From: a virus | IMG/VR virus record: IMGVR_UViG_3300046532_001026 | Coordinates: 1-21,939 of that record | Strand: one strand, 5' to 3' | Length of the DNA: 21,939 nucleotides | Shown here: one piece after another, positions 5,960-18,578 of the stretch | Position numbering within the stretch: the stretch's first letter is position 1 | Layout: each line of letters starts with the position of its first letter | Made by a program: the position numbers and the translations under genes | Notes under the pieces: generated by a model | Told to the model about the DNA's origin: nothing | Seen by the model: the letters and a program-made list of their open reading frames with translations, nothing else | Database searches by the model: none

Positions 5960-5988
5960 TTGACATGTCCTACTTTTTGCTATATAAT
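5960..5988 (+). promoter_or_regulatory. Consensus sigma70 promoter for the replication module
   Basis: TTGACA (5960-5965), a 17-base spacer and TATAAT (5983-5988) give a perfect match to the host vegetative promoter consensus. The spacer contains TTTTTGCTA just before the -10, resembling the TTTGCTATAAT shared by four later promoters. A GGGAGAAGAGA ribosome site and the primase ATG at 6012 follow. It lies in the 143-bp gap between the lysis and replication modules and probably starts the long rightward operon. Confidence 0.85.
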
Positions 5989-9875: not shown

Positions 9876-10304
9876 ATGTATACTAACCCTTGGATTTATC
9901 AGGGTGAAATATTTAATGAGAATTTGGTTGACAAACACCACGGAATGGTGTATTGTATAACTTGTCTTGATAGTGGTAGGAAGTACATAGGTCGTAAAAC
10001 GTTTTGGTTTATGAGAAAGAAACCAGGAGCTAAACGACGATCTAGAATAGAGAGTGATTGGCGCAAGTACTATGGTTCAAGTGAAGTACTAAAAGCTTTA
10101 ATCAAAGAGTTGGGCGTAGAGCATTTTAAAAGAGAAATACTATCTTTACATAAAACTAAAGGCGAGATGAATTATACTGAAGTTAAAATTCAATTCCAAC
10201 GAAATGTTTTAGAGTCTTCTGATTATATAAATGATAATATAAATGGTAAGTATTTCAAATCGAGAGTGGAGAAGTGGCATGACCCCGATGGAAAAGATTT
10301 ATAA
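9876..10304 (+). CDS. GIY-YIG-type endonuclease, Seg-like
   Basis: 142 residues, starting directly after the preceding stop. The N-terminal domain carries a divergent GIY-YIG pattern: GMVYCITCLDSGRKYIGRKT, with the YIG triad at YIGRK. A basic region with conserved Trp and Tyr follows (RRSRIESDWRKYYGSSEVLK), then FKREILSLHKTKGEMNYTEV with Glu in the metal-binding position. Stand-alone enzymes of this type are common in T4-like phages as Seg-like homing endonucleases. No DNA-binding extension is visible, so it may be solitary and degenerate. The C-terminal 26 bases overlap the start of the dioxygenase gene. Confidence 0.82.
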   Translation: MYTNPWIYQGEIFNENLVDKHHGMVYCITCLDSGRKYIGRKTFWFMRKKPGAKRRSRIESDWRKYYGSSEVLKALIKELGVEHFKREILSLHKTKGEMNYTEVKIQFQRNVLESSDYINDNINGKYFKSRVEKWHDPDGKDL

Positions 10305-11145
10305 TAGTTCTTATAAAAACTTAGATAAAGCACCGTTAAATGATGTTATTAAGGCTAAGAAAGGACTCCATCTATATCGTAAGTTACAAGCAGAAGTTAA
10401 ACATTTTGAACGATTGAGTCAGTGTAAATATTATGATAAGAAAGCTATTCGTTCAGACGTACAAGAAGAATACTTTAAGAATGGTATTGTGATCTATAAA
10501 AACTTCGTCGGTTCCCAAGTCGATAGTAGACGGGTCGGTGAAGAATTCGAAGCATACCCTCTTGGTGTATCTAAAAACGATGACAATATTATAGCTAAGA
10601 ATAGAAGTAAGGGCCGACTACTACATAAACTATCTGAATTAATCTTCCCTGTTATTTGGGATTTAATCGGTGGTAATGAAAAAGAAGTAGAGAAGAAATA
10701 CCGAGACAACACTTTCGCTCAAAGAGTAAACAACAAACCCTTTGAAAAAGACCACCAGAAATTGATTCATCTAGATACTTATTTCTCCGCTATCAAGTAT
10801 TGGTGGTTTCCTGCAAAAGTTACTAAAGAAGATGGCCCACTATGTTATGTCAAAAATAGTTGTTATGCAAACGAAGCACTACAGATGTGGTACTATAAAC
10901 AAAGTGTAGATGTGTGTGAAAAAAATTATGAAGAATGGAGAGGCAAAGATCATTCAGAAGGTTCGTTTAGAGTAAGTGAAGAAGAATTAGCTGATATGGG
11001 GTATATGTTAGAACCCGTAGAAGTAGATGAAGACACCTTAGTAATTGCTAATGTAGCAGGATTTCATTGTCGAGGAGATGCATCAGTAGAAAATGTTAGA
11101 AATGCTATTCATGGAAGTATTAGATTAGACCTACCATTGGAGTGA
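10279..11145 (+). CDS. PhyH-like Fe(II)/2-oxoglutarate dioxygenase
   Basis: 288 residues from ATG 10279, which has GGAG seven bases upstream; earlier in-frame codons lie inside the endonuclease gene. The pattern fits phytanoyl-CoA dioxygenase-like enzymes: HLDTYFSAIKYWWFP gives the HxD iron ligands (His164, Asp166), and NVAGFHCRGDAS the likely distal His263, with arginines at 265 and 274 able to bind 2-oxoglutarate. EDGPLCYVKNS resembles the usual loop between them. Such enzymes hydroxylate small molecules or sugars. First gene of the sugar operon, so a sugar or lipid-linked substrate is plausible but not shown. Family call fairly good; substrate unknown. Confidence 0.72.
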   Translation: MTPMEKIYNSSYKNLDKAPLNDVIKAKKGLHLYRKLQAEVKHFERLSQCKYYDKKAIRSDVQEEYFKNGIVIYKNFVGSQVDSRRVGEEFEAYPLGVSKNDDNIIAKNRSKGRLLHKLSELIFPVIWDLIGGNEKEVEKKYRDNTFAQRVNNKPFEKDHQKLIHLDTYFSAIKYWWFPAKVTKEDGPLCYVKNSCYANEALQMWYYKQSVDVCEKNYEEWRGKDHSEGSFRVSEEELADMGYMLEPVEVDEDTLVIANVAGFHCRGDASVENVRNAIHGSIRLDLPLE

Positions 11146-11148
11146 AAG

Positions 11149-11562
11149 ATGTTGAAATTATATTCGAATATCGTAGAAAATAAGTTGTTACATATGATTT
11201 ACTATAAGGATGACCTAGCAGCTACGCGAGAAGACGTAGCACCAGAGGAACAGTTCATTCAAGTATCCGCACTAAAACTCGAAGCGGGTAAGACGTTTCG
11301 TCCTCACAAGCATATTTGGAAAGAAGCACCAGAGCCTGAAGTTATTGCACAAGAGTCTTGGTGTATACTAGAAGGTCGTGTTAAAGCACATTTTTACGAT
11401 CTAGATGATAGTTTGCTAGGTGAATATGAGCTAGAGGTTGGTGATATTTCTTTGACATTCGAGGGCGGTCATACGTATACCATTCTTGAAGATGCTAAGG
11501 TATATGAATATAAGACAGGCCCATATCTAGGTGTAGAGATGGATAAGGTCTTCTTAGAGTAA
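11149..11562 (+). CDS. Cupin-fold protein, sugar-nucleotide or metal-binding type
   Basis: 137 residues, with GGAG upstream. It has a single cupin barrel: motif 1 FRPHKHIW followed by QESWCILEGRVKAHFY (candidate metal ligands His53, His55, Glu69), and motif 2 LEVGDISLTFEGGHTYTILE with His108. Cupins in surface-sugar operons are often sugar ketoisomerases or epimerases (FdtA/WxcM or WbuC-like); the lack of conserved active-site landmarks prevents a firm choice. Stop and start overlap the next gene by one base (TAATG at 11560). A member of the sugar operon by context. Confidence 0.68.
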   Translation: MLKLYSNIVENKLLHMIYYKDDLAATREDVAPEEQFIQVSALKLEAGKTFRPHKHIWKEAPEPEVIAQESWCILEGRVKAHFYDLDDSLLGEYELEVGDISLTFEGGHTYTILEDAKVYEYKTGPYLGVEMDKVFLE

Positions 11563-12314
11563 TGCATCACTATAATATAAGAGGTGGACTTGGTACTCAA
11601 GTTCTGCAATTTGTTAATGTTTATGCTGATTTATTGGATAAAGGTTTAACAGATGCAGAACTTGAGATTACCCTTAATTTCGGTAATTATGATGATTGGT
11701 TTTATACAAATCCTGGTAATCATACAGTAGATTTAGACTTCGTGTCTTCGTTGTTTGATTACAAGACTTTCCCTACAATCAAAAATAGAATAGGAACACA
11801 TAAATTTAATTGTTTTAATATGAAATCGGCTGTGAATATGGTTAAGTACAGAGAAACAATTGTAGATCTATTGAAACTCAGATCTCAATCTTTTGTACCG
11901 TTTAGTAAAGAATATGTATTACATACAAGGACTAAAGATAGGCAACTCATTTCTAGAAAAGAATATATAGAATATATAGGTAATTTTGACTCATCACAAT
12001 GTGGTTACATTATAGGTGATGACAATTCATTTTGTAAATCTTTGGTTAGTACAAATACTAACTGGAAATTGAGTGATAATGAAACATCGGTAAACGATTG
12101 GTTGGCACTTGCTACTGGAAAAAACAAAGTAGTATCATCGTTTACAACATATACCTTATCAGCCGCTTATTTCAATCCTAACTCAAAGTTCTATATTCTA
12201 AAATATGATCCCAATAGTATGGTCAGTAAAAGTGATTGGGATACAGTAGAATATTTTGTACAAGAGTTTAATAATCTGGAGTATGCATATCTTGAAAATA
12301 ATACTACATACTAA
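11562..12314 (+). CDS. Putative GT11-like glycosyltransferase (fucosyltransferase-type)
   Basis: 250 residues, starting within the previous stop (TAATG). The N-terminal GGLGTQVLQFVNVYADLLDK matches the GGLGNQxFQ(Y/F)xxxxxL start of family 11 alpha-1,2-fucosyltransferases. VLHTRTKDRQ stands where that family has HxRRGD, here altered, and WLALATGKNKVVSSFTTYTL matches the C-terminal nucleotide-binding region, where a serine-rich motif (NSSFSWW) is usual. The changes in key residues make donor and activity uncertain; a GDP-sugar donor (fucose or a 4-amino sugar) is plausible because GDP-mannose dehydratase is nearby. The end overlaps the formyltransferase start. Confidence 0.62.
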   Translation: MHHYNIRGGLGTQVLQFVNVYADLLDKGLTDAELEITLNFGNYDDWFYTNPGNHTVDLDFVSSLFDYKTFPTIKNRIGTHKFNCFNMKSAVNMVKYRETIVDLLKLRSQSFVPFSKEYVLHTRTKDRQLISRKEYIEYIGNFDSSQCGYIIGDDNSFCKSLVSTNTNWKLSDNETSVNDWLALATGKNKVVSSFTTYTLSAAYFNPNSKFYILKYDPNSMVSKSDWDTVEYFVQEFNNLEYAYLENNTTY

Positions 12315-12915
12315 TAATCAAAAGACAAGAGACATCCTTAGATCTTACGGACACGAATTAGTAAATAATGATTATTCTCGTCCTGATTATATAATTTGTT
12401 ATAGAACATATAACATTTTATCTAGAGAAGAAATTGATAGTGTTAACGTAGGAGCAATAAATTTCCATACTGGACCTCCAGAGTATCCAGGGCGGGGAAG
12501 TGTGAACCTCGCTCTACATCATAATAAAACAAACTTCGGTGTTACAGCACATCTAATGACGACTGAAATAGATAATGGACGCATATTAGACGTTAGATTT
12601 TTTGATATAGATAGTAGTGATAATGTTGATACTTTATGGGTGAAAACTGAAGAGAATCTACTAAAGTTGTTTTCCGATTTCTGTATGGGATTGGATGAAA
12701 CAGAATATATCACTATGAAACTAGATCAAAATGAGAACTACATATGGAATGGGAAAGCTAATAAAATGAGACAAATTGATGATTTACAAGTAATACCATT
12801 AGACTGTTCTGAGGAGCATCTAAAGAATATTATTCGATCTACTTATACACCAGAATTTAGGCCTAAAATCATCTTGCATGGATACGAATTCGTAATGGAA
12901 AAAATCAATGACTGA
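12283..12915 (+). CDS. Sugar N-formyltransferase (WbkC/VioF-type)
   Basis: 210 residues from ATG 12283; a TTG at 12292, ten bases after GGAG, is an equally good start and would give LKIILHTNNQK as the first strand. The enzyme would transfer a formyl group from N10-formyl-tetrahydrofolate to an amino sugar on a nucleotide. The catalytic pattern is clear: INFHTGPPEYPGRGSVN with Asn60 and His62, then FGVTAHLMTTEIDNGRIL with Asp97, equal to the Asn-His-Asp set of formyltransferases. It sits directly before a DegT aminotransferase and GDP-mannose 4,6-dehydratase, matching GDP-N-formylperosamine synthesis. Methionyl-tRNA formyltransferase is less likely because of the short length and context. Confidence 0.82.
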   Translation: MHILKIILHTNNQKTRDILRSYGHELVNNDYSRPDYIICYRTYNILSREEIDSVNVGAINFHTGPPEYPGRGSVNLALHHNKTNFGVTAHLMTTEIDNGRILDVRFFDIDSSDNVDTLWVKTEENLLKLFSDFCMGLDETEYITMKLDQNENYIWNGKANKMRQIDDLQVIPLDCSEEHLKNIIRSTYTPEFRPKIILHGYEFVMEKIND

Positions 12916-13660
12916 GTATAGTTCATGGCCGATTGGTCGGCTGCCCAAAGAATTCCAAAGACCAGAATTGGATCAAGTTAGGGAGTTAGGATATGATTGG
13001 AAAGACCCTAGAGACGTTGTTGATATGTTTGAGAAGAAGGTGGCAAAGTTTGCTGGTAGTCGATATGCCGTTGCTGTTGACTGCTGTTCTCATGGTATCT
13101 TTCTGGCTCTACAGTGTTTAAAAAGAAACAGACACAATAAATCATTAGCAGACATTACTATCCCTAATCACACATATGTTTCAATACCTATGCAAATCTT
13201 ACAGGCTGGGTTCAATCTACAATTTGAAGAACGTGAATGGTCTGGGATGTATCAGCTAAAGCCATATAACGTATGGGATGGAGCTACTCGCTGGACAAAA
13301 GGGATGTATACGGGTGGTTATCATATCGTATCGTTTCAATTGAAAAAAAGAGTACCAATTGGCAAAGGAGGTATGATTTTACTTGACTCAGAGGGCGATT
13401 ACGAGTATATTAAGAAGGTAAGGTATGATGGAAGGGATTTAGATGGTAAATACGATGAAGACCCTTTCGAGTATATGGGGTGGCATTATTATATGTCACC
13501 AGAAGACGCAGCCCGTGGTATTATTTTAATGGATCAGATACCAGAAGAGAACGAAGATAGTGGTGATTGGCGTAATTATCCTGATGTATCGAAAGCGAGG
13601 TTTCTAAATGGCAAAAACGAAAGTGGCTCTAATAACAGGTATCAGTGGTCAAGATGGTAG
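12908..13660 (+). CDS. DegT/DnrJ-type sugar aminotransferase, short
   Basis: 250 residues. It would add an amino group at C4 of a 4-keto sugar nucleotide using PLP and glutamate. Family marks: FEKKVAKFAGSRYAVAVDCC then SHGIFLALQCL (cofactor phosphate region), IPNHTYVSIPMQILQAGF, VWDGA with Asp124 (PLP ring nitrogen), and SFQLKKRVPIGKGG with Lys147 as the expected Schiff-base lysine. Full enzymes have 360-400 residues; this one lacks most of the C-terminal domain. Its last 53 bases overlap the next gene, which supplies the odd tail NGKNESGSNNRYQWSRW. It may be a compact variant or a decayed copy. Paired with the dehydratase it resembles GDP-perosamine synthase. Confidence 0.72.
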   Translation: MTEYSSWPIGRLPKEFQRPELDQVRELGYDWKDPRDVVDMFEKKVAKFAGSRYAVAVDCCSHGIFLALQCLKRNRHNKSLADITIPNHTYVSIPMQILQAGFNLQFEEREWSGMYQLKPYNVWDGATRWTKGMYTGGYHIVSFQLKKRVPIGKGGMILLDSEGDYEYIKKVRYDGRDLDGKYDEDPFEYMGWHYYMSPEDAARGIILMDQIPEENEDSGDWRNYPDVSKARFLNGKNESGSNNRYQWSRW

Positions 13661-14582
13661 CTATCTAACTGAATATCTACTAGAGTTGGGATATGAAGTT
13701 CATGGTGTCGTTAGACGGCATAGTGTAGCAGAAAACCAAAGCGCAAGACTATTAGACACTAATGATAAGATTACTACTCATTATGGAGATCTCCTTGATG
13801 AGCATTCTTTGTATAAAATTATGAATGAAGTTAAGCCAGACGAAATCTATAATCTGGCCGCAATGAGTCAAGTACGAATTAGTAGTGATATCCCATCATT
13901 TACTCTTAAAACAAACGCTCTGGGTGTTCTTAATATGCTAGAAGTATATAAGAACGTAGTACCTGAAGCTAAGTTCTATCAAGCATCGTCTAGTGAAATG
14001 TTTGGTAATACTGTGGATGATGATGGATTTCAACGACTAACTACACCTATGAATCCAGTTAGTCCATATGGTTGTGCTAAAGTTTTGGGATACAATCTTA
14101 CCCGACACTATCGCCACGCATACAAACTACAGACTTCAAACGGGGTTCTATTCAATCACGAATCGCCTCGTAGGGGTACAAACTTTGTAACTAACAAGGT
14201 TGTGAAGAATGCTGTAATGATTTCTATGGGATATATGGATACGTTAGAGATGGGTAATATGGATAGTAGTCGTGATTGGGGACACAGTTATGATTATGTC
14301 CGTGCTATGCATAAGATCGTTAATCACGATGTAGCTGATGATTGGGTTGTTGCTACAGGGAAATCATATTCCGTAAGAGAGATGTGTGATTATGTGTTTT
14401 CTAGTTTGGATATGAATTATAAAGATTACGTAGTTCAAAACCCAAAGTATATGCGGCCTGAAGAATTGAAGTATCTTTGTGGTGATTCAAGCAACACTCG
14501 TAAAGTTCTTAATTGGGAGCCTACTTATACTTTTAATACTATGCTTGATGAGATGATTAAGTACTGGATGGATAATCTATGA
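13608..14582 (+). CDS. gmd: GDP-mannose 4,6-dehydratase
   Basis: 324 residues. It converts GDP-D-mannose to GDP-4-keto-6-deoxymannose, the branch point to fucose, rhamnose and perosamine. N-terminal TGISGQDGSYLTEYLLE is the NADP-binding loop in the form characteristic of Gmd (TGxxGQDGSYL), with HGVVRRHS after the second strand. The catalytic set is Ser128 and Glu130 (SSSEMFG) and the YxxxK pair Tyr154 and Lys158 (YGCAK). ESPRRGTNFVTNKV matches the Gmd active-site loop, with Thr where Glu is usual. GAGG lies eight bases upstream. The start lies inside the preceding gene. The sibling enzymes for fucose (GMER) are not in the window. Confidence 0.92.
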   Translation: MAKTKVALITGISGQDGSYLTEYLLELGYEVHGVVRRHSVAENQSARLLDTNDKITTHYGDLLDEHSLYKIMNEVKPDEIYNLAAMSQVRISSDIPSFTLKTNALGVLNMLEVYKNVVPEAKFYQASSSEMFGNTVDDDGFQRLTTPMNPVSPYGCAKVLGYNLTRHYRHAYKLQTSNGVLFNHESPRRGTNFVTNKVVKNAVMISMGYMDTLEMGNMDSSRDWGHSYDYVRAMHKIVNHDVADDWVVATGKSYSVREMCDYVFSSLDMNYKDYVVQNPKYMRPEELKYLCGDSSNTRKVLNWEPTYTFNTMLDEMIKYWMDNL

Positions 14583-15280
14583 GGTATTTATTCGCTAGTT
14601 GTGATGAAAAGTATTTTGTTGAGCATGGTGTTCAGTTTATCAATAGTGCTATCAATCAAGGGGTGTTCCCATGGGTAGATATCATTAATCCAGATAGCGA
14701 TTTACTATTGTTATCTGGAAAAGCAATCAAATCTTTAAATCTACTTCGTATGACACACGATGATGATACTTATAAGATCACATATACTAAATCTAATATA
14801 ACAGATAGAACATTCTATGCTTGTAATCGATTTATCAAAGCATCTGAAATACTACTAAATGCAGAAGCAATATTAATTACAGATATTGATTGTTTCTTGC
14901 GTAAACCCATTGAATGGGATGATTTTGCTGATGCGGATTACTCTCTATATTTGAGAGATCCTTTACCAGGCACTGTTGGTTGGGAGAACACTGGTACTCA
15001 CGTCGGTGCTGGTGCAGTATACTTAACACAAAAAGCAAGAATATTCATGGAGTTTGTAAAGAGACAGATAGAACATTACGGGTTAGTTTGGTTTGTTGAT
15101 CAAGTATCTTTATGGGAAGTACATGAACACTTTCGAACAAACAATTTAGGTTTACGTTTTAAGGAGATGCCACAGAAGTATATTGACTGGGAATTCACAG
15201 AAGATGGTGTTATCTGGACTGGCAAAGGTTCACGAAAAACACAAACAAATTATCTAGAGGAGCGTGATCGTGCAAGTTGA
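14579..15280 (+). CDS. Glycosyltransferase with DxD motif (GT-A fold)
   Basis: 233 residues, with start ATGA overlapping the gmd stop. AILITDIDCFLRKPIEWDDF contains the DxD metal/nucleotide-sugar motif (Asp102, Asp104). FVDQVSLWEVHEHF stands where GT8/GT32-like enzymes have their acceptor and catalytic Asp region, and GTHVGAGAVYLTQ resembles the variable loop that precedes it. No signal or membrane segment is seen, so it acts on the cytoplasmic side. Donor and acceptor unknown; context suggests transfer to a phage- or host-specific glycan. Its end overlaps the next gene's start region by 11 bases. Confidence 0.75.
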   Translation: MRYLFASCDEKYFVEHGVQFINSAINQGVFPWVDIINPDSDLLLLSGKAIKSLNLLRMTHDDDTYKITYTKSNITDRTFYACNRFIKASEILLNAEAILITDIDCFLRKPIEWDDFADADYSLYLRDPLPGTVGWENTGTHVGAGAVYLTQKARIFMEFVKRQIEHYGLVWFVDQVSLWEVHEHFRTNNLGLRFKEMPQKYIDWEFTEDGVIWTGKGSRKTQTNYLEERDRAS

Positions 15281-16277
15281 TATCTATATGCCTAGAATGG
15301 ATGTGATGTTTAAAGAAGGCCCAGTGCCAAAGGAACGAGGACCCATTGCACCTATCAGGAAACATTGGTTGAACTTTATTGAAATGCTGAATGTAGCACA
15401 TATTGGTAAGGGAGATCAGACTAAAATTTATGAATTACCTCTTTGGCAAATCACATCAGAACGTGTTAAAGAAAATAGTCCCGATGCTGATATGATTTAT
15501 ATCCCACATAAGATGCGTGAAAACTGGTTACTTGATGATCGTATTCGTTATTATATGCAAATGGTAATCCCTACCATTTTTTCTATCGACCCATACGGCT
15601 GGGGTGCTACTGCTAAATCGTATCCATTAAGAGATTTTAACAGTTCAGAAAAACACAAACCAGAAATTTATGATTCTATGGCTAAAAGGATTCAGAGCAA
15701 CACTTCTAAGTTCGACCAGCCAGAAAGGAAACCTTTATTATTAAACTATGTACAGAATGATGGTCATAAACGTCGTCTATACGATTATGTTTTCTTTCCT
15801 TGTCAAATCCCACATGATGAAACTATCAAATATCATAGCCCTATCTCAGTAGAAGAAACTTTAGAGTGTGTTTTGAAATGGGCATCAGGCACGGGTAAAC
15901 ATGTTGTCATTAAGGGGCATCCAGTCAATCCAGGTTCTATGGCTTCTATTAAAGAGGTTGCTAAACGATATCCTCATATTTGGGTGGATGATTATAGCAT
16001 TCATGACTTGATAGAGAACGCTAAGATGGTGGTGACGGTTAACAGTGGTGTAGGATTAGAAGCAATCTTACATGGCAAACAGGTGGTGACATTCGGCCGA
16101 GCTGATTACGATCAAGTCACGTATAATGCCAATGATAAGAATTTTTATGATGTCTTGTCTGGTGCTTATAGCACAGCCGATTTAGTTAATATCAGTCGAT
16201 ATAAGAGATTTCTAGACCATTGGTATCATACTTATTACGACACAGAAAATGCTGAAACGTTTGAAAAGGTCGGGTGA
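15270..16277 (+). CDS. Capsule-polysaccharide glycosyltransferase, KpsS/LipB-like
   Basis: 335 residues from GTG 15270, eight bases after GAGGA (15257-15261); a GTG at 15264 is too close to that site. C-terminal marks of the capsule polysaccharide biosynthesis family (KpsS/KpsC/LipB beta-Kdo transferases) are visible: HVVIKGHPVNPGSMASI, then DLIENAKMVVTVNSGVGLEA with ILHGKQVVTFGRADYD, the nucleotide-sugar pocket. The N-terminal half is less typical, with Trp- and Pro-rich segments. It ends at TGA overlapping the PurS start (GTGATG). A role in capsule or LPS assembly is likely; the donor is not known, and a relative of the GT99/GT107 group is the best guess. Confidence 0.68.
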   Translation: MQVDIYMPRMDVMFKEGPVPKERGPIAPIRKHWLNFIEMLNVAHIGKGDQTKIYELPLWQITSERVKENSPDADMIYIPHKMRENWLLDDRIRYYMQMVIPTIFSIDPYGWGATAKSYPLRDFNSSEKHKPEIYDSMAKRIQSNTSKFDQPERKPLLLNYVQNDGHKRRLYDYVFFPCQIPHDETIKYHSPISVEETLECVLKWASGTGKHVVIKGHPVNPGSMASIKEVAKRYPHIWVDDYSIHDLIENAKMVVTVNSGVGLEAILHGKQVVTFGRADYDQVTYNANDKNFYDVLSGAYSTADLVNISRYKRFLDHWYHTYYDTENAETFEKVG

Positions 16278-16534
16278 TGAAAGTTGGTATTAAAGTGCTT
16301 TTACGTGATGGTGTGAAAGACTCTCAGGGAACTGCTGTAATGAATGCCTTAGAGTCTATGGGATATAAAGGTATCAAAGACATTCTTGTCGGGAAATATA
16401 TTATAGTGACGATGGATGAAGACACCAAAGAGTCTCGTATCCTGGTAAAAAAGATGTGTGATGATCTATTAGCTAATTTGGTTATTGAGAAATATGAAAT
16501 CGAATATCCGCTGGATCTCTATGATCTACAATAA
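16277..16534 (+). CDS. purS: PurS, FGAM synthetase small subunit
   Basis: 85 residues. PurS bridges PurL and PurQ in the enzyme making FGAM from FGAR, the fourth step of purine synthesis. MKVGIKVLLRDGVKDSQGTA fits the start (LKxGVxDxQGxAV), GYKGIKDILVGKYIIV the second strand, and CDDLLANLVIEKYEIE the end (LLxNPVIExYxIE). Length equals bacterial PurS. The ATG shares its A with the TGA of the preceding gene; a GTG at 16274 would add one residue but gives a weaker N-terminus. PurL and PurQ are not in the window. A lone phage PurS could assemble with host PurLQ and lift purine flux. Confidence 0.9.
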   Translation: MKVGIKVLLRDGVKDSQGTAVMNALESMGYKGIKDILVGKYIIVTMDEDTKESRILVKKMCDDLLANLVIEKYEIEYPLDLYDLQ

Positions 16535-16727
16535 GAACGTTGTTGATTGGAGACGACTGACATATCCAGCATGTGTAGGGATAGTTCGAATTGGGCGATA
16601 TCCTAACACAGTGTTGGAATATTGGTCAGACGGTGTCTTTCGAGAGATATCTTGGTATCTCAGGCTTTTTCCTATGAGATGGTTGACTTGGAATCGACAA
16701 GGAATTAAATTAAAAAAATTGAAATAA
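16521..16727 (+). CDS. Small basic hypothetical protein
   Basis: 68 residues from ATG 16521, which overlaps the last 14 bases of purS; the frame is open further upstream to 16485, but that part lies inside purS. The protein is Trp-rich and basic (VDWRRLTYPACVGIVRIGRY; LFPMRWLTWNRQGIKLKKLK). GGA precedes the ATG but no strong ribosome site is seen. It ends just before a strong promoter, so it is probably the last gene of the long operon. Function unknown. Coding status rests on the frame length and tight packing. Confidence 0.5.
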   Translation: MIYNKNVVDWRRLTYPACVGIVRIGRYPNTVLEYWSDGVFREISWYLRLFPMRWLTWNRQGIKLKKLK

Positions 16728-16731
16728 ACTA

Positions 16732-16760
16732 TTGACTCTTCCTTCGTTCTTTGCTATAAT
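16732..16760 (+). promoter_or_regulatory. Sigma70 promoter, member 1 of the repeated set
   Basis: TTGACT (16732-16737), 17 bases, TATAAT (16755-16760), with TTTGC before the -10 giving an extended TGn box. The following AACTATACTGAAACAG and GAAAGAGA leader recurs at three later promoters. It drives the 75-residue gene at 16794. Confidence 0.85.
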
Positions 16761-16793
16761 AACTATACTGAAACAGCGAAAGAGATCAGCACT

Positions 16794-17021
16794 ATGACCG
16801 TTCCAGCCAGCTACACGTTAGATGCCCCTACTTTCAATAGCAATGTACTGATGCTTATCGAAGATTTCAATTTCACCATTCGCAAGACTAAGACCCTGCC
16901 CATGAATCGCATTCTTGTTTCTGTGCGATTTGTAGATGAGTCTGCGAAGACTAAGTTCGATAATTATCTCTTCGAATCTGATATGATTTATATTCCGAAG
17001 ATTACTGAAGATAGTGCTTGA
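16794..17021 (+). CDS. Hypothetical early protein
   Basis: 75 residues, alone behind a strong promoter with a short leader (GAAAGAGA then ATG). Mixed alpha/beta composition with strands such as NRILVSVRFVDE and a Tyr/Ile-rich end (DMIYIPKITED); no signal or membrane segment and no known motif. Its TGA stop lies inside the -35 box of the next promoter (TTGACA). Base composition is richer in G+C than the surrounding virion genes. Function unknown; a small host-takeover protein is a guess from the promoter layout. Confidence 0.7.
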   Translation: MTVPASYTLDAPTFNSNVLMLIEDFNFTIRKTKTLPMNRILVSVRFVDESAKTKFDNYLFESDMIYIPKITEDSA

Positions 17022-17058
17022 CAAACCCTTTGTTATTTGCTATAATAACTATACTGAA
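17016..17058 (+). repeat. Promoter-cassette repeat, copy A
   Basis: A 43-base stretch running from GCTTGACAAACC through TTTGCTATAAT to ACTATACTGAA. It is identical to 17287-17329 except for one base (A in place of G at the 20th position). It spans the stop codon, -35, spacer, -10 and start of the leader. Confidence 0.9.
17018..17046 (+). promoter_or_regulatory. Sigma70 promoter, member 2 of the repeated set
   Basis: TTGACA (17018-17023), 17 bases, TATAAT (17041-17046), extended -10 TGC. The TGA of the -35 box is the stop codon of the preceding gene. It drives the 70-residue gene at 17080. Confidence 0.9.
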
Positions 17059-17079
17059 GAGATGATGAAAGAGAGAGAC

Positions 17080-17292
17080 ATGATGAACATTGAAATCGGT
17101 ACCAAGATGATTGGAAACTGGGGTGGGTATAGTCCTCTCAGTCTAGGTGAAGTTACTTCGATTCATGATAATGGTATGATTGAGGTCAACTTTGATGATC
17201 AAGACGGCTATACGCTCTTCCGACCGAACGAGATTCGGACTGATTACGCCACCTCTAATAAAATTGGTGTGTATATCGATAATTTCGCTTGA
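17080..17292 (+). CDS. Hypothetical small protein with SH3/KOW-like core
   Basis: 70 residues starting at ATG 17080 (GAGAGAGAC before it). The frame is open to 17014, but that part is promoter DNA, so the later start is chosen; the same GAGAC-ATG arrangement is seen at 17344. The sequence IGTKMIGNWGGYSPLSLGEV then TSIHDNGMIEVNFDDQDGYT reads as a small all-beta barrel like SH3, Tudor or KOW folds, with FRPNEI closing. Such folds bind RNA, DNA or proteins. Its TGA stop is inside the next -35 box. Function unknown. Confidence 0.72.
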   Translation: MMNIEIGTKMIGNWGGYSPLSLGEVTSIHDNGMIEVNFDDQDGYTLFRPNEIRTDYATSNKIGVYIDNFA

Positions 17293-17329
17293 CAAACCCT
17301 TTGTTGTTTGCTATAATAACTATACTGAA
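17287..17329 (+). repeat. Promoter-cassette repeat, copy B
   Basis: Second copy of the 43-base cassette at 17016-17058, one mismatch, 271 bases downstream in direct orientation. It likewise includes the stop codon of the upstream gene. Related but less similar sequences are at 16731 and 17848. Confidence 0.9.
17289..17317 (+). promoter_or_regulatory. Sigma70 promoter, member 3 of the repeated set
   Basis: TTGACA (17289-17294), 17 bases, TATAAT (17312-17317), extended -10 TGC. The TGA stop of the preceding gene lies in the -35. It drives genes 17344 and 17643. Confidence 0.9.
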
Positions 17330-17343
17330 ACAGAGAAAGAGAC

Positions 17344-17646
17344 ATGAAAATGTTTATTCCTAGCAAATTTGAAGACTGCGGTGAGTACGTTTTCTACAAT
17401 CATGGTGGTCCAGGCACCTGTCACTTCCGTAACGAGAGAAAGTTCGTTGCTCGTTTCAAGCGGGGCGGTAAAGCTTCTTTCATCAAGTTTCTGAAAGCGA
17501 ATTTTACTCCTGATGAGTATTTTGCTCGTAGCGACATGGGGGAAGCTCCTTTGACCATCCTGAACGCTAAGGGATATGTTAGCCCGATGGCGGCGAGAAC
17601 GGCCTGGCGGATGGATCTATACGATCGGCGGATGGAGGCGGGATGA
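17344..17646 (+). CDS. Conserved phage protein, unknown function
   Basis: 100 residues. The ATG follows GAGAAAGAGAC. Features: FYNHGGPGTCHFRN, then FVARFKRGGKASFIKFLKAN followed by FTPDEYFARSDMGEAPLTIL and NAKGYVSP. I recall the pattern FVARFKRGGKAxFxxFLxxNFTxEEYFARxExGExPLxIxxxKGYxxP in small proteins of unrelated phages, without a named function. The last 60 bases are very GC-rich for this genome and contain GGCGGATGGA twice, 21 bases apart. The stop overlaps the next start (ATGA at 17643). Probably an early protein because it sits behind a strong host-type promoter. Confidence 0.75.
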   Translation: MKMFIPSKFEDCGEYVFYNHGGPGTCHFRNERKFVARFKRGGKASFIKFLKANFTPDEYFARSDMGEAPLTILNAKGYVSPMAARTAWRMDLYDRRMEAG

Positions 17647-17828
17647 CAAAGATTCTAATCATTATTATATTCACCGGAGTCGAGATGACTCTAGATGCCA
17701 AAGAGCTATATGGGATAACAACAATGGAACAATGCCGCGAAGTTGTCCCTAACATTCAACGAGAGTATCCATATGCTCAGGTCTCTTGTGTCTTGGGAGA
17801 TATCACGCAGCCGATGCCCAAGGCATAA
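17643..17828 (+). CDS. Small exported or membrane-tethered hypothetical protein
   Basis: 61 residues, start overlapping the preceding stop (ATGA). The N-terminus MTKILIIIIFTGVEM is a short hydrophobic segment, possibly a signal peptide or anchor; the rest (ELYGITTMEQCREVVPNIQR then EYPYAQVSCVLGD) is soluble with two cysteines that could form a disulphide in the periplasm. No lipobox. Small Cys-pair proteins with short leader segments are common in phages and unassigned. Export and disulphide are inferred. Confidence 0.6.
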   Translation: MTKILIIIIFTGVEMTLDAKELYGITTMEQCREVVPNIQREYPYAQVSCVLGDITQPMPKA

Positions 17829-17849
17829 ATAACATACTGAAAATAGGGG

Positions 17850-17878
17850 TTGACAAGCCCCTTGATGTTTGCTATAAT
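17850..17878 (+). promoter_or_regulatory. Sigma70 promoter, member 4 of the repeated set
   Basis: TTGACA (17850-17855), 17 bases, TATAAT (17873-17878), extended -10 TGC, followed by a variant leader GTGTATAATGAAACAGTGAA. Upstream, ATAAATAACATACTGAAAA (17826-17844) looks like a decayed copy of the same leader. It drives the 24-residue ORF and the genes from 17988 on. Confidence 0.88.
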
Positions 17879-17908
17879 GTGTATAATGAAACAGTGAAAG
17901 AAAAATCA

Positions 17909-17983
17909 ATGTTTGAACTTTATGTCTTCGGTGTCTTGATGGTTATGGCGTTGGTTGCTGGATTTTCCGTGAGGAATATGTAA
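17909..17983 (+). CDS. 24-residue hydrophobic micro-ORF
   Basis: MFELYVFGVLMVMALVAGFS then VRNM, a single membrane helix with a short positive end. The ATG follows the GAAACAGTGAAAGAAAAATCA leader in the same place where the other cassette genes start, so it is the first ORF of a strong promoter. No Shine-Dalgarno better than GAAAG is seen. A micro-membrane protein (antiholin, membrane sensor) or merely a leader for the HAD gene, which starts five bases after its stop, are both possible. Too short for composition tests. Confidence 0.5.
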   Translation: MFELYVFGVLMVMALVAGFSVRNM

Positions 17984-17987
17984 GAAT

Positions 17988-18578
17988 ATGGAAAAAAAGA
18001 TTGTAGCAGATTGTGATGGCGTACTTCTAAATTGGGAGTACGCTTTTGATTGCTGGATAAATGAAAAGGGTTTCTACAAGTTGCCTGGCACTGAAGATGA
18101 ATATCATATTGGTAATCGGTATGGTATTACAACGGATAAGGGCCGAGCTTTAGTAAAAGAGTTTAATCAATCGGCTGCCATCGGCTTTCTACCAGCACTA
18201 CGTGACGCAGCTTATTATGTTAAATTGCTTCATGAAAAACACGGGTATGTGTTCGATGTAGTCACTAGCCTTAGCAAGAGTAAGTATGCGGCTAAGTTGC
18301 GTGAACGGAATTTAGATAAGATTTTCGGCGAGAATGTTTTTCGTCGGGTTGTTTGTCTTGATACTGGTGCTGATAAAGACGATTGTCTGCAAGAGTTATA
18401 TGCCGATGGTCCCAGTTATTATTGGATTGAAGATAAGGTATCTAATGCAGTAGCTGGTGCTAAAGTTGGTATGAAACCTATCTTGGTAGAACACGCATTT
18501 AATATGAATGAGAAACTAGACTTTCCAATCTTAAAGAATTGGGAAGAAATTTACAATTATATTTTGGATAACGGATGA
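17988..18578 (+). CDS. HAD-superfamily 5'(3')-nucleotidase-like hydrolase
   Basis: 196 residues. The N-terminal IVADCDGVLLNW is HAD motif I, with nucleophile Asp8 and Asp10. FDVVTSLSKSKYAAKLRERN holds the motif II Ser/Thr and helical lysines, and YYWIEDKVSNAVAGAKVG has the motif IV acidic pair and a motif III-type Lys. Length and layout suit phage and bacterial deoxyribonucleotidases (NT5C-like), which dephosphorylate nucleotides. The start ATG at 17988 is near GAGG. Overlap with the next gene is ATGA (18575). Nucleotide recycling or sanitation alongside RNR/ThyX fits the context; the substrate is not shown. Confidence 0.78.
   Translation: MEKKIVADCDGVLLNWEYAFDCWINEKGFYKLPGTEDEYHIGNRYGITTDKGRALVKEFNQSAAIGFLPALRDAAYYVKLLHEKHGYVFDVVTSLSKSKYAAKLRERNLDKIFGENVFRRVVCLDTGADKDDCLQELYADGPSYYWIEDKVSNAVAGAKVGMKPILVEHAFNMNEKLDFPILKNWEEIYNYILDNG

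Follow-up and report, generated by a model that had tools for sequence, protein, structure and literature searches.

In phages of the T4 superfamily, strong σ70-like promoters known as promoter-early stem-loops (PeSLs) recur within variable regions, ahead of small and mostly uncharacterised genes, and it is in the genes lying between PeSLs that close relatives differ, some being inserted, deleted or replaced. These elements of T4-type phages were reportedly described by Arbiol et al. in 2010 and by Comeau et al. in 2014, and the former are said to have found circles excised between nearby PeSL units. PeSLs have been linked to gene shuffling in T4-type phages (PMC4503421). In the part of Nolan et al. 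(2006, PMC1524935) used here, early-type promoters are described as preceding many novel ORFs of T4-like phages, and the morons of lambdoid phages as carrying their own promoter and terminator and deviating in G+C. Highly similar regulatory sequences before mutually unlike small genes of the archaeal virus SIRV2 led to anti-defence genes (PMC11065993), and in cluster K mycobacteriophages a short conserved sequence (SAS/ESAS) is repeated before many genes of one genome (PMC3203893). Comparison of the promoter array described here with its relatives strongly supports the view that units of a promoter and its genes come, go and replace one another through recombination within promoter sequences.

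Viral Affiliation and Surroundings of the Array

The DNA analysed here (the window, 21,939 bases) comprises positions 1 to 21,939 of a single virus record of IMG/VR, IMGVR_UViG_3300046532_001026. By its gene content, it is a fragment of an uncultured T4-superfamily virus, the relatives of which point to a marine origin. The window encodes a T4-type gp61 primase, ThyX, a B12-dependent NrdJ, an endolysin, and a sugar-synthesis block. The gp61-type primase, 39.7% identical to its counterparts in T4-like cyanophages, places the virus in the T4 superfamily, and other window genes are nearest to those of HTVC008M, Melnitz, and phiM12. Judged by single T4-type proteins, the nearest cultured phages are T4-like cyanophages, HTVC008M, Melnitz, phiM12, DLP_6, and C48C1, all of these matches being below 50% identity. 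No DNA-level match of the window to cultured phages was found, and the array DNA gave only weak, promoter-like matches to them. The region directly before the array (10243–16277) is a sugar and capsule synthesis block with GDP-mannose dehydratase-like, aminotransferase-like, formyltransferase-like, and capsule-synthesis genes. Additionally, an ORF downstream of NrdJ (9876–10301) matches phrog_447 (labelled NAD synthetase), as well as homing-endonuclease families.

Relatives were gathered by exact-pattern scans of IMG/VR. The same promoter family is found in about 17 related contigs, several of which carry arrays of 2 to 6 copies, with different genes behind the promoters. The resulting table holds 39 promoters from 18 sequences (the window and 17 contigs, designated by L numbers, with L191 a doubtful member); the relatives are all metagenome contigs, several end in or near an array, and they represent few independent lineages. 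The closest of them, IMGVR_UViG_3300027839_000083 (the sister contig), is 90% identical to the window over 9.3 kb. Five larger T4-like records (C48C1, DLP_6, and three larger contigs) gave no match to the motif, and the idea that the family is a general trait of T4-like phages was rejected on that basis. A looser 19-base pattern retrieved mostly unrelated phages with generic σ70 promoters. The sole match in a bacterial genome was to an Oscillospiraceae MAG.

Organization of the Array

The array and its flanks comprise the following features, all on the + strand:

16274–16727, left flank: a PurS-like gene (16274–16534; Pfam PurS, E 4e-24) and a 65-aa ORF (16530–16727), from profile match and sister comparison
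16710–16793, promoter unit 1: stop-containing stretch, TTGACT at 16732–16737, TATAAT at 16755–16760, and a leader up to the start codon
16794–17021, 75-aa "anchor" gene, ending at the TGA of the next −35 box
16996–17082, promoter unit 2: TTGACA at 17018–17023, TATAAT at 17041–17046, and a leader of the type of contig L007, GAAGAGATGATGAAAGAGAGA
17083–17292, 70-aa gene (start at 17080 or 17083), absent from the sister contig
17267–17343, promoter unit 3: TTGACA at 17289–17294 and TATAAT at 17312–17317; a near-copy of unit 2
17344–17646, 100-aa gene, phrog_22119 (function not assigned), with an orthologue in the sister contig
17643–17828, 61-aa gene with a hydrophobic N-terminus and two cysteines, coupled to the 100-aa gene before it
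17828–17908, promoter unit 4: TTGACA at 17850–17855, TATAAT at 17873–17878, and a hairpin at 17845–17862
17909–17983, 24-aa hydrophobic ORF, kept as 25 aa in the sister contig
17988–18578, 196-aa gene, phrog_420, the conserved right flank of the array

The four promoters that a sequence-only reading had placed within 1.15 kb (16732, 17018, 17289, and 17850), each with a 17-base spacer, were all borne out. They are of σ70 type, carry TTTGCTATAAT, and have TTTGC preceding TATAAT; three match the consensus at 12/12 positions and the remaining one at 11/12. Sites of the TTGAC-N(15–19)-TATAAT type number 5 in the window against 0.20 expected, with four at these places, and none of 100 shuffled sequences reached 5. 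Another consensus promoter, at 5960–5988 before the primase gene, is kept in the sister contig; with its TATATAAT spacing, it is unlike the array family. The same reading was accurate in reporting two 43-base copies with one mismatch (17016–17058 and 17287–17329, a span that counts the GC before TTGACA), that the TGA of the next TTGACA is the stop codon of both the 75-aa gene (17019–17021) and the 70-aa gene (17290–17292), and that the genes have no DNA similarity to each other; self-matches of at least 25 bases in the window are confined to the promoter units. In turn, other parts of it need amending. The repeated unit is longer than the 43-base copies, at about 75 nt, starting some 22 bases upstream of the −35 box and reaching the GAAAGAG leader. 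The common leader, ATACTGAAACAG, is exact at 16732 and 17289, but 17018 has ATACTGAAGAGATG and 17850 has ATAATGAAACAG. The assignment of one tiny gene to each promoter is to be corrected for 17289, where genes of 100 and 61 aa share one unit, and for 17850, where the 24-aa ORF is followed by the 196-aa gene.

Across the whole family, the promoter profile contains invariant TTGAC, TTTGC, TA.AAT, and TATA.TGA, preceded by about 22 conserved, A-rich bases that include stop codons and followed by the GAAAGAG leader. The element TATANTGA, located 4–11 bases after TATAAT (a 3-base gap), is invariant in all array promoters and looks like either an additional −10 box or a conserved start of the transcript.

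The anchor protein of the relatives has 65 residues and ends in NEDY*, whereas the window copy lacks that stop and is ten residues longer. A structural model of the 75-aa protein has a predicted β-α-β-β-α fold with a low-confidence ten-residue tail, and a fold search with it returned only generic α/β folds, none with an E of 0.001 or better. The model of the 70-aa protein was too poor for use. Inspected by eye, the 61-aa product may be a secreted protein and the 196-aa product appears HAD-like, from its DxDGVLLxW start. No Pfam match was found for the cassette genes of the window, and only one of them matched a PHROG, of unknown function. Cassette genes in the relatives gave weak SprT-like or phage-metallopeptidase matches, below curated cut-offs, and further ones matched PHROGs of unknown function. 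In both L007 and L021, a gene that reads as PurN-like lies behind the same promoter family.

Stop Codons, Hairpins and Terminators

In every unit, the TGA of TTGACA closes one reading frame, and most units close a second one with a TGA at −12 or a TAG/TAA at −6. One of these three unit stops (−12, −6, or the −35 TGA) terminates 19 of the 29 upstream genes. The capsule-synthesis protein of L006 ends in KKVEDY* and the window copy in EKVG*, as if the L006 tail had been rewritten by the unit, gaining the unit-encoded EDY*. We can tentatively speculate that the unit serves the acquisition of genes as a dedicated universal adaptor: with its stop codons in two frames, an insertion close to the end of nearly any gene would leave the upstream protein terminated, and gene conversion would keep the units similar enough for further recombination, although we lean against an interpretation this specific.

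In unit 4 of the window, the −35 box lies in the loop of a GGGG-TTGACAAG-CCCC hairpin (17845–17862), which is also found in several other units. Of 35 units folded, about 10 have a stable hairpin at −35, a frequency also reached with permuted upstream ends, and the hairpin was thus rejected as a constant part of the unit. Terminator-like sites are not above chance in the arrays of the window, L011, and L007. With terminators neither conserved nor enriched, transcripts therefore probably run through several units.

Differences between Related Arrays

The array of the sister contig lacks exactly one promoter-to-promoter unit (17018–17288). The product of the 70-aa gene of this unit recurs in L007 as an about 79% identical protein, with the same leader in a different array. 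The sister contig also lacks the PurS-like gene and the 65-aa ORF, homology resuming at 16718, and has an additional 133-aa gene ahead of unit 4. Between L008 and L011, the difference is again a single cassette, a second one-unit indel, and the single L008 promoter is chimeric: its left part matches the first L011 promoter (35:2 informative sites) and its right part the second (20:1), with the switch inside the promoter. Over the 4.3 kb that end with TTGACA, L011 and L014 differ at 3 positions; with the very next base their sequences part and lead into different genes. Between L007 and L009, homology restarts exactly at the first base of a −35 box. Behind the 65/75-aa anchor gene, six different genes occur (in the window, L006, L010, L011, L013, and L014, together with fragments).

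The ends of alignment blocks fall in promoter units in 26 of 43 cases, the units covering about 15% of the arrays, a count in which the ends are not independent and are biased to promoters, since alignments extend into conserved promoter DNA. The change involving the 133-aa gene in L006 has no promoter at its left boundary. Just upstream of a promoter at 4753 of L013 (reverse strand), a start-less fragment ending in EIIQNNA* matches the tail of the 64-aa gene of L008 and L011; we take this fragment to be a remnant carried along with the promoter.

The two clean one-cassette indels, the chimeric promoter, and the array-end swaps located exactly at the promoter strongly support the earlier proposal that cassettes of a promoter plus a small gene are gained and swapped. 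The converse pattern, in which relatives have the same fixed genes behind diverged promoters, was looked for, and the opposite was seen. The description of the cassette as duplicating fits the promoter cores, which are homogenised between neighbouring units, but not the genes, as units arrive with different genes rather than duplicated ones. Spacers are more alike in neighbouring units than in permuted ones (p about 0.001). At two orthologous promoters of L007 and L009, the flanks are identical and the spacers differ at 6/12 positions, those of L009 being one base away from the spacers at 17850 in the window and at 2573 in L007. Such sharing of spacers would fit short gene-conversion tracts.

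Mechanism and Alternative Explanations

We consider it likely that the locus is an array of variable small-gene cassettes, in which the unit of about 75 bp provides the homology for recombination that shuffles the genes. Each unit combines stop codons that end the gene before it with a predicted, nearly perfect host-σ70 promoter with an extended −10 and a short leader with a ribosome-binding site, and such a unit is placed ahead of each gene or small gene group. Because the units are alike, homologous crossover inside them would be possible, within one genome or between co-infecting relatives, and would insert, delete or replace whole cassettes, so that each newcomer gene would bring a strong promoter and the preceding gene would still end properly. 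In addition, short conversion tracts would copy promoter cores between units. In T4, homology of about 50 bp or less is said to suffice for recombination (PMC4177764), and the unit here measures about 75 bp. The promoters may be used by host RNA polymerase in early infection, and the cassette proteins may have an accessory role in host interaction.

An explanation that we regard as unlikely is that the promoters are alike solely through selection for the σ70 consensus, with turnover of the adjacent genes due to unrelated illegitimate recombination. The −35 and −10 boxes are what σ70 selects, and many unrelated phages have near-consensus promoters with TTTGCTATAAT; however, the similarity spans the entire length of about 75 nt, upstream stop codons and leader included, and different copies share or have exchanged spacers that are not part of the consensus. 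Joints are located within the promoter, and the two-parent chimera of L008 already disfavours selection as the sole cause. Chimeric joins made by metagenome assemblers at repeats could be suspected in a set of metagenome contigs, several of them ending in or near arrays, and one repeat pair of L011 is identical over 59 bp. Yet the exact repeats in the window are short (17 and 25 bases flanking one mismatch), and the order P1596-P1948-P2215 of L007 recurs in L009, which comes from another metagenome. L010 and L014, 93% identical, share the same anchor gene and spacer and have different next genes, and leaders travel with their genes, leaving an assembly origin of the differences very improbable.

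Slightly less probable still is a site-specific exchange of cassettes in which the promoter unit would act as attachment site, either in the manner of an integron or through a mobile element. While whole units do move and the ends cluster at units, the joints vary in position: L007/L009 have theirs at the −35 box, L011/L014 immediately behind it, and L008 between the spacer and the −10 box. Inverted repeats are not conserved either, the hairpins occurring as in permuted controls. No integrase or transposase was present among the window ORFs searched (part of all ORFs), and an integron or transposon was rejected for want of a fixed site and of such an enzyme among those ORFs.

Comparison with Known Systems

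If read as above, the locus makes recombination joints visible inside 29-bp promoters of natural viruses, as well as an exchange of gene cassettes between marine viruses so alike that 4.3 kb contain 3 differences. The concept of PeSLs would thereby reach uncultured marine viruses of the T4 type and an architecture lacking regular terminators. As a tag, the promoter motif can be used for retrieving small genes with fast turnover, among which anti-defence or host-takeover factors may reasonably be sought. Such a role of the small proteins is plausible by analogy with SIRV2 (PMC11065993) and with the novel ORFs of T4-like phages in the cited part of PMC1524935.

In SIRV2, alike regulatory sequences also precede small genes without mutual similarity, but its promoters are of the archaeal TATA/BRE type and their early expression was measured, whereas the promoters of the present array are predicted. 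SAS is tied to the translation start, and in ESAS, where 17-bp inverted repeats are added, the element accompanies one gene family from genome to genome, in contrast to the units described here, which are predicted promoters with changing genes behind them. Like a moron, a cassette is a gene inserted with its own promoter; a moron is, however, a single gene with promoter and terminator between two genes, whereas the array has no regular terminators, runs of genes share one unit, and the G+C content is moderately different (41.6% in the array, 36.3% in the window). Integron cassettes are defined by a fixed site, a conserved inverted repeat, and an integrase; here the joints vary, no hairpin is conserved, and no integrase is among the ORFs searched. 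The promoters in the consulted part of Nolan et al. (PMC1524935) resemble those of the array in the A-rich upstream region and, in some phages, in the G of a GTTGAC-type −35 box; that part gives a genome-wide consensus and does not report a near-identical tandem array or joints inside promoters.

The likeness to PeSLs is the closest. Here, too, repeated σ70-like promoters stand before small genes with turnover of cassettes; consensus boxes, the 17-base spacer, and the extended −10 make them strong σ70-like promoters in the PeSL sense, and recombination between units explains gain, loss and replacement among close relatives. A PeSL has a stem-loop terminator, whereas the unit of the array has no regular one, gives the upstream gene its stop codons, and includes the extended TTTGC −10 and the invariant TATANTGA start region. 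We do not file the array as a PeSL because the name-giving stem-loop was tested and is not a regular part of it. Its repeated element is better described as PeSL-like, lacking regular terminators but having stop codons built in.
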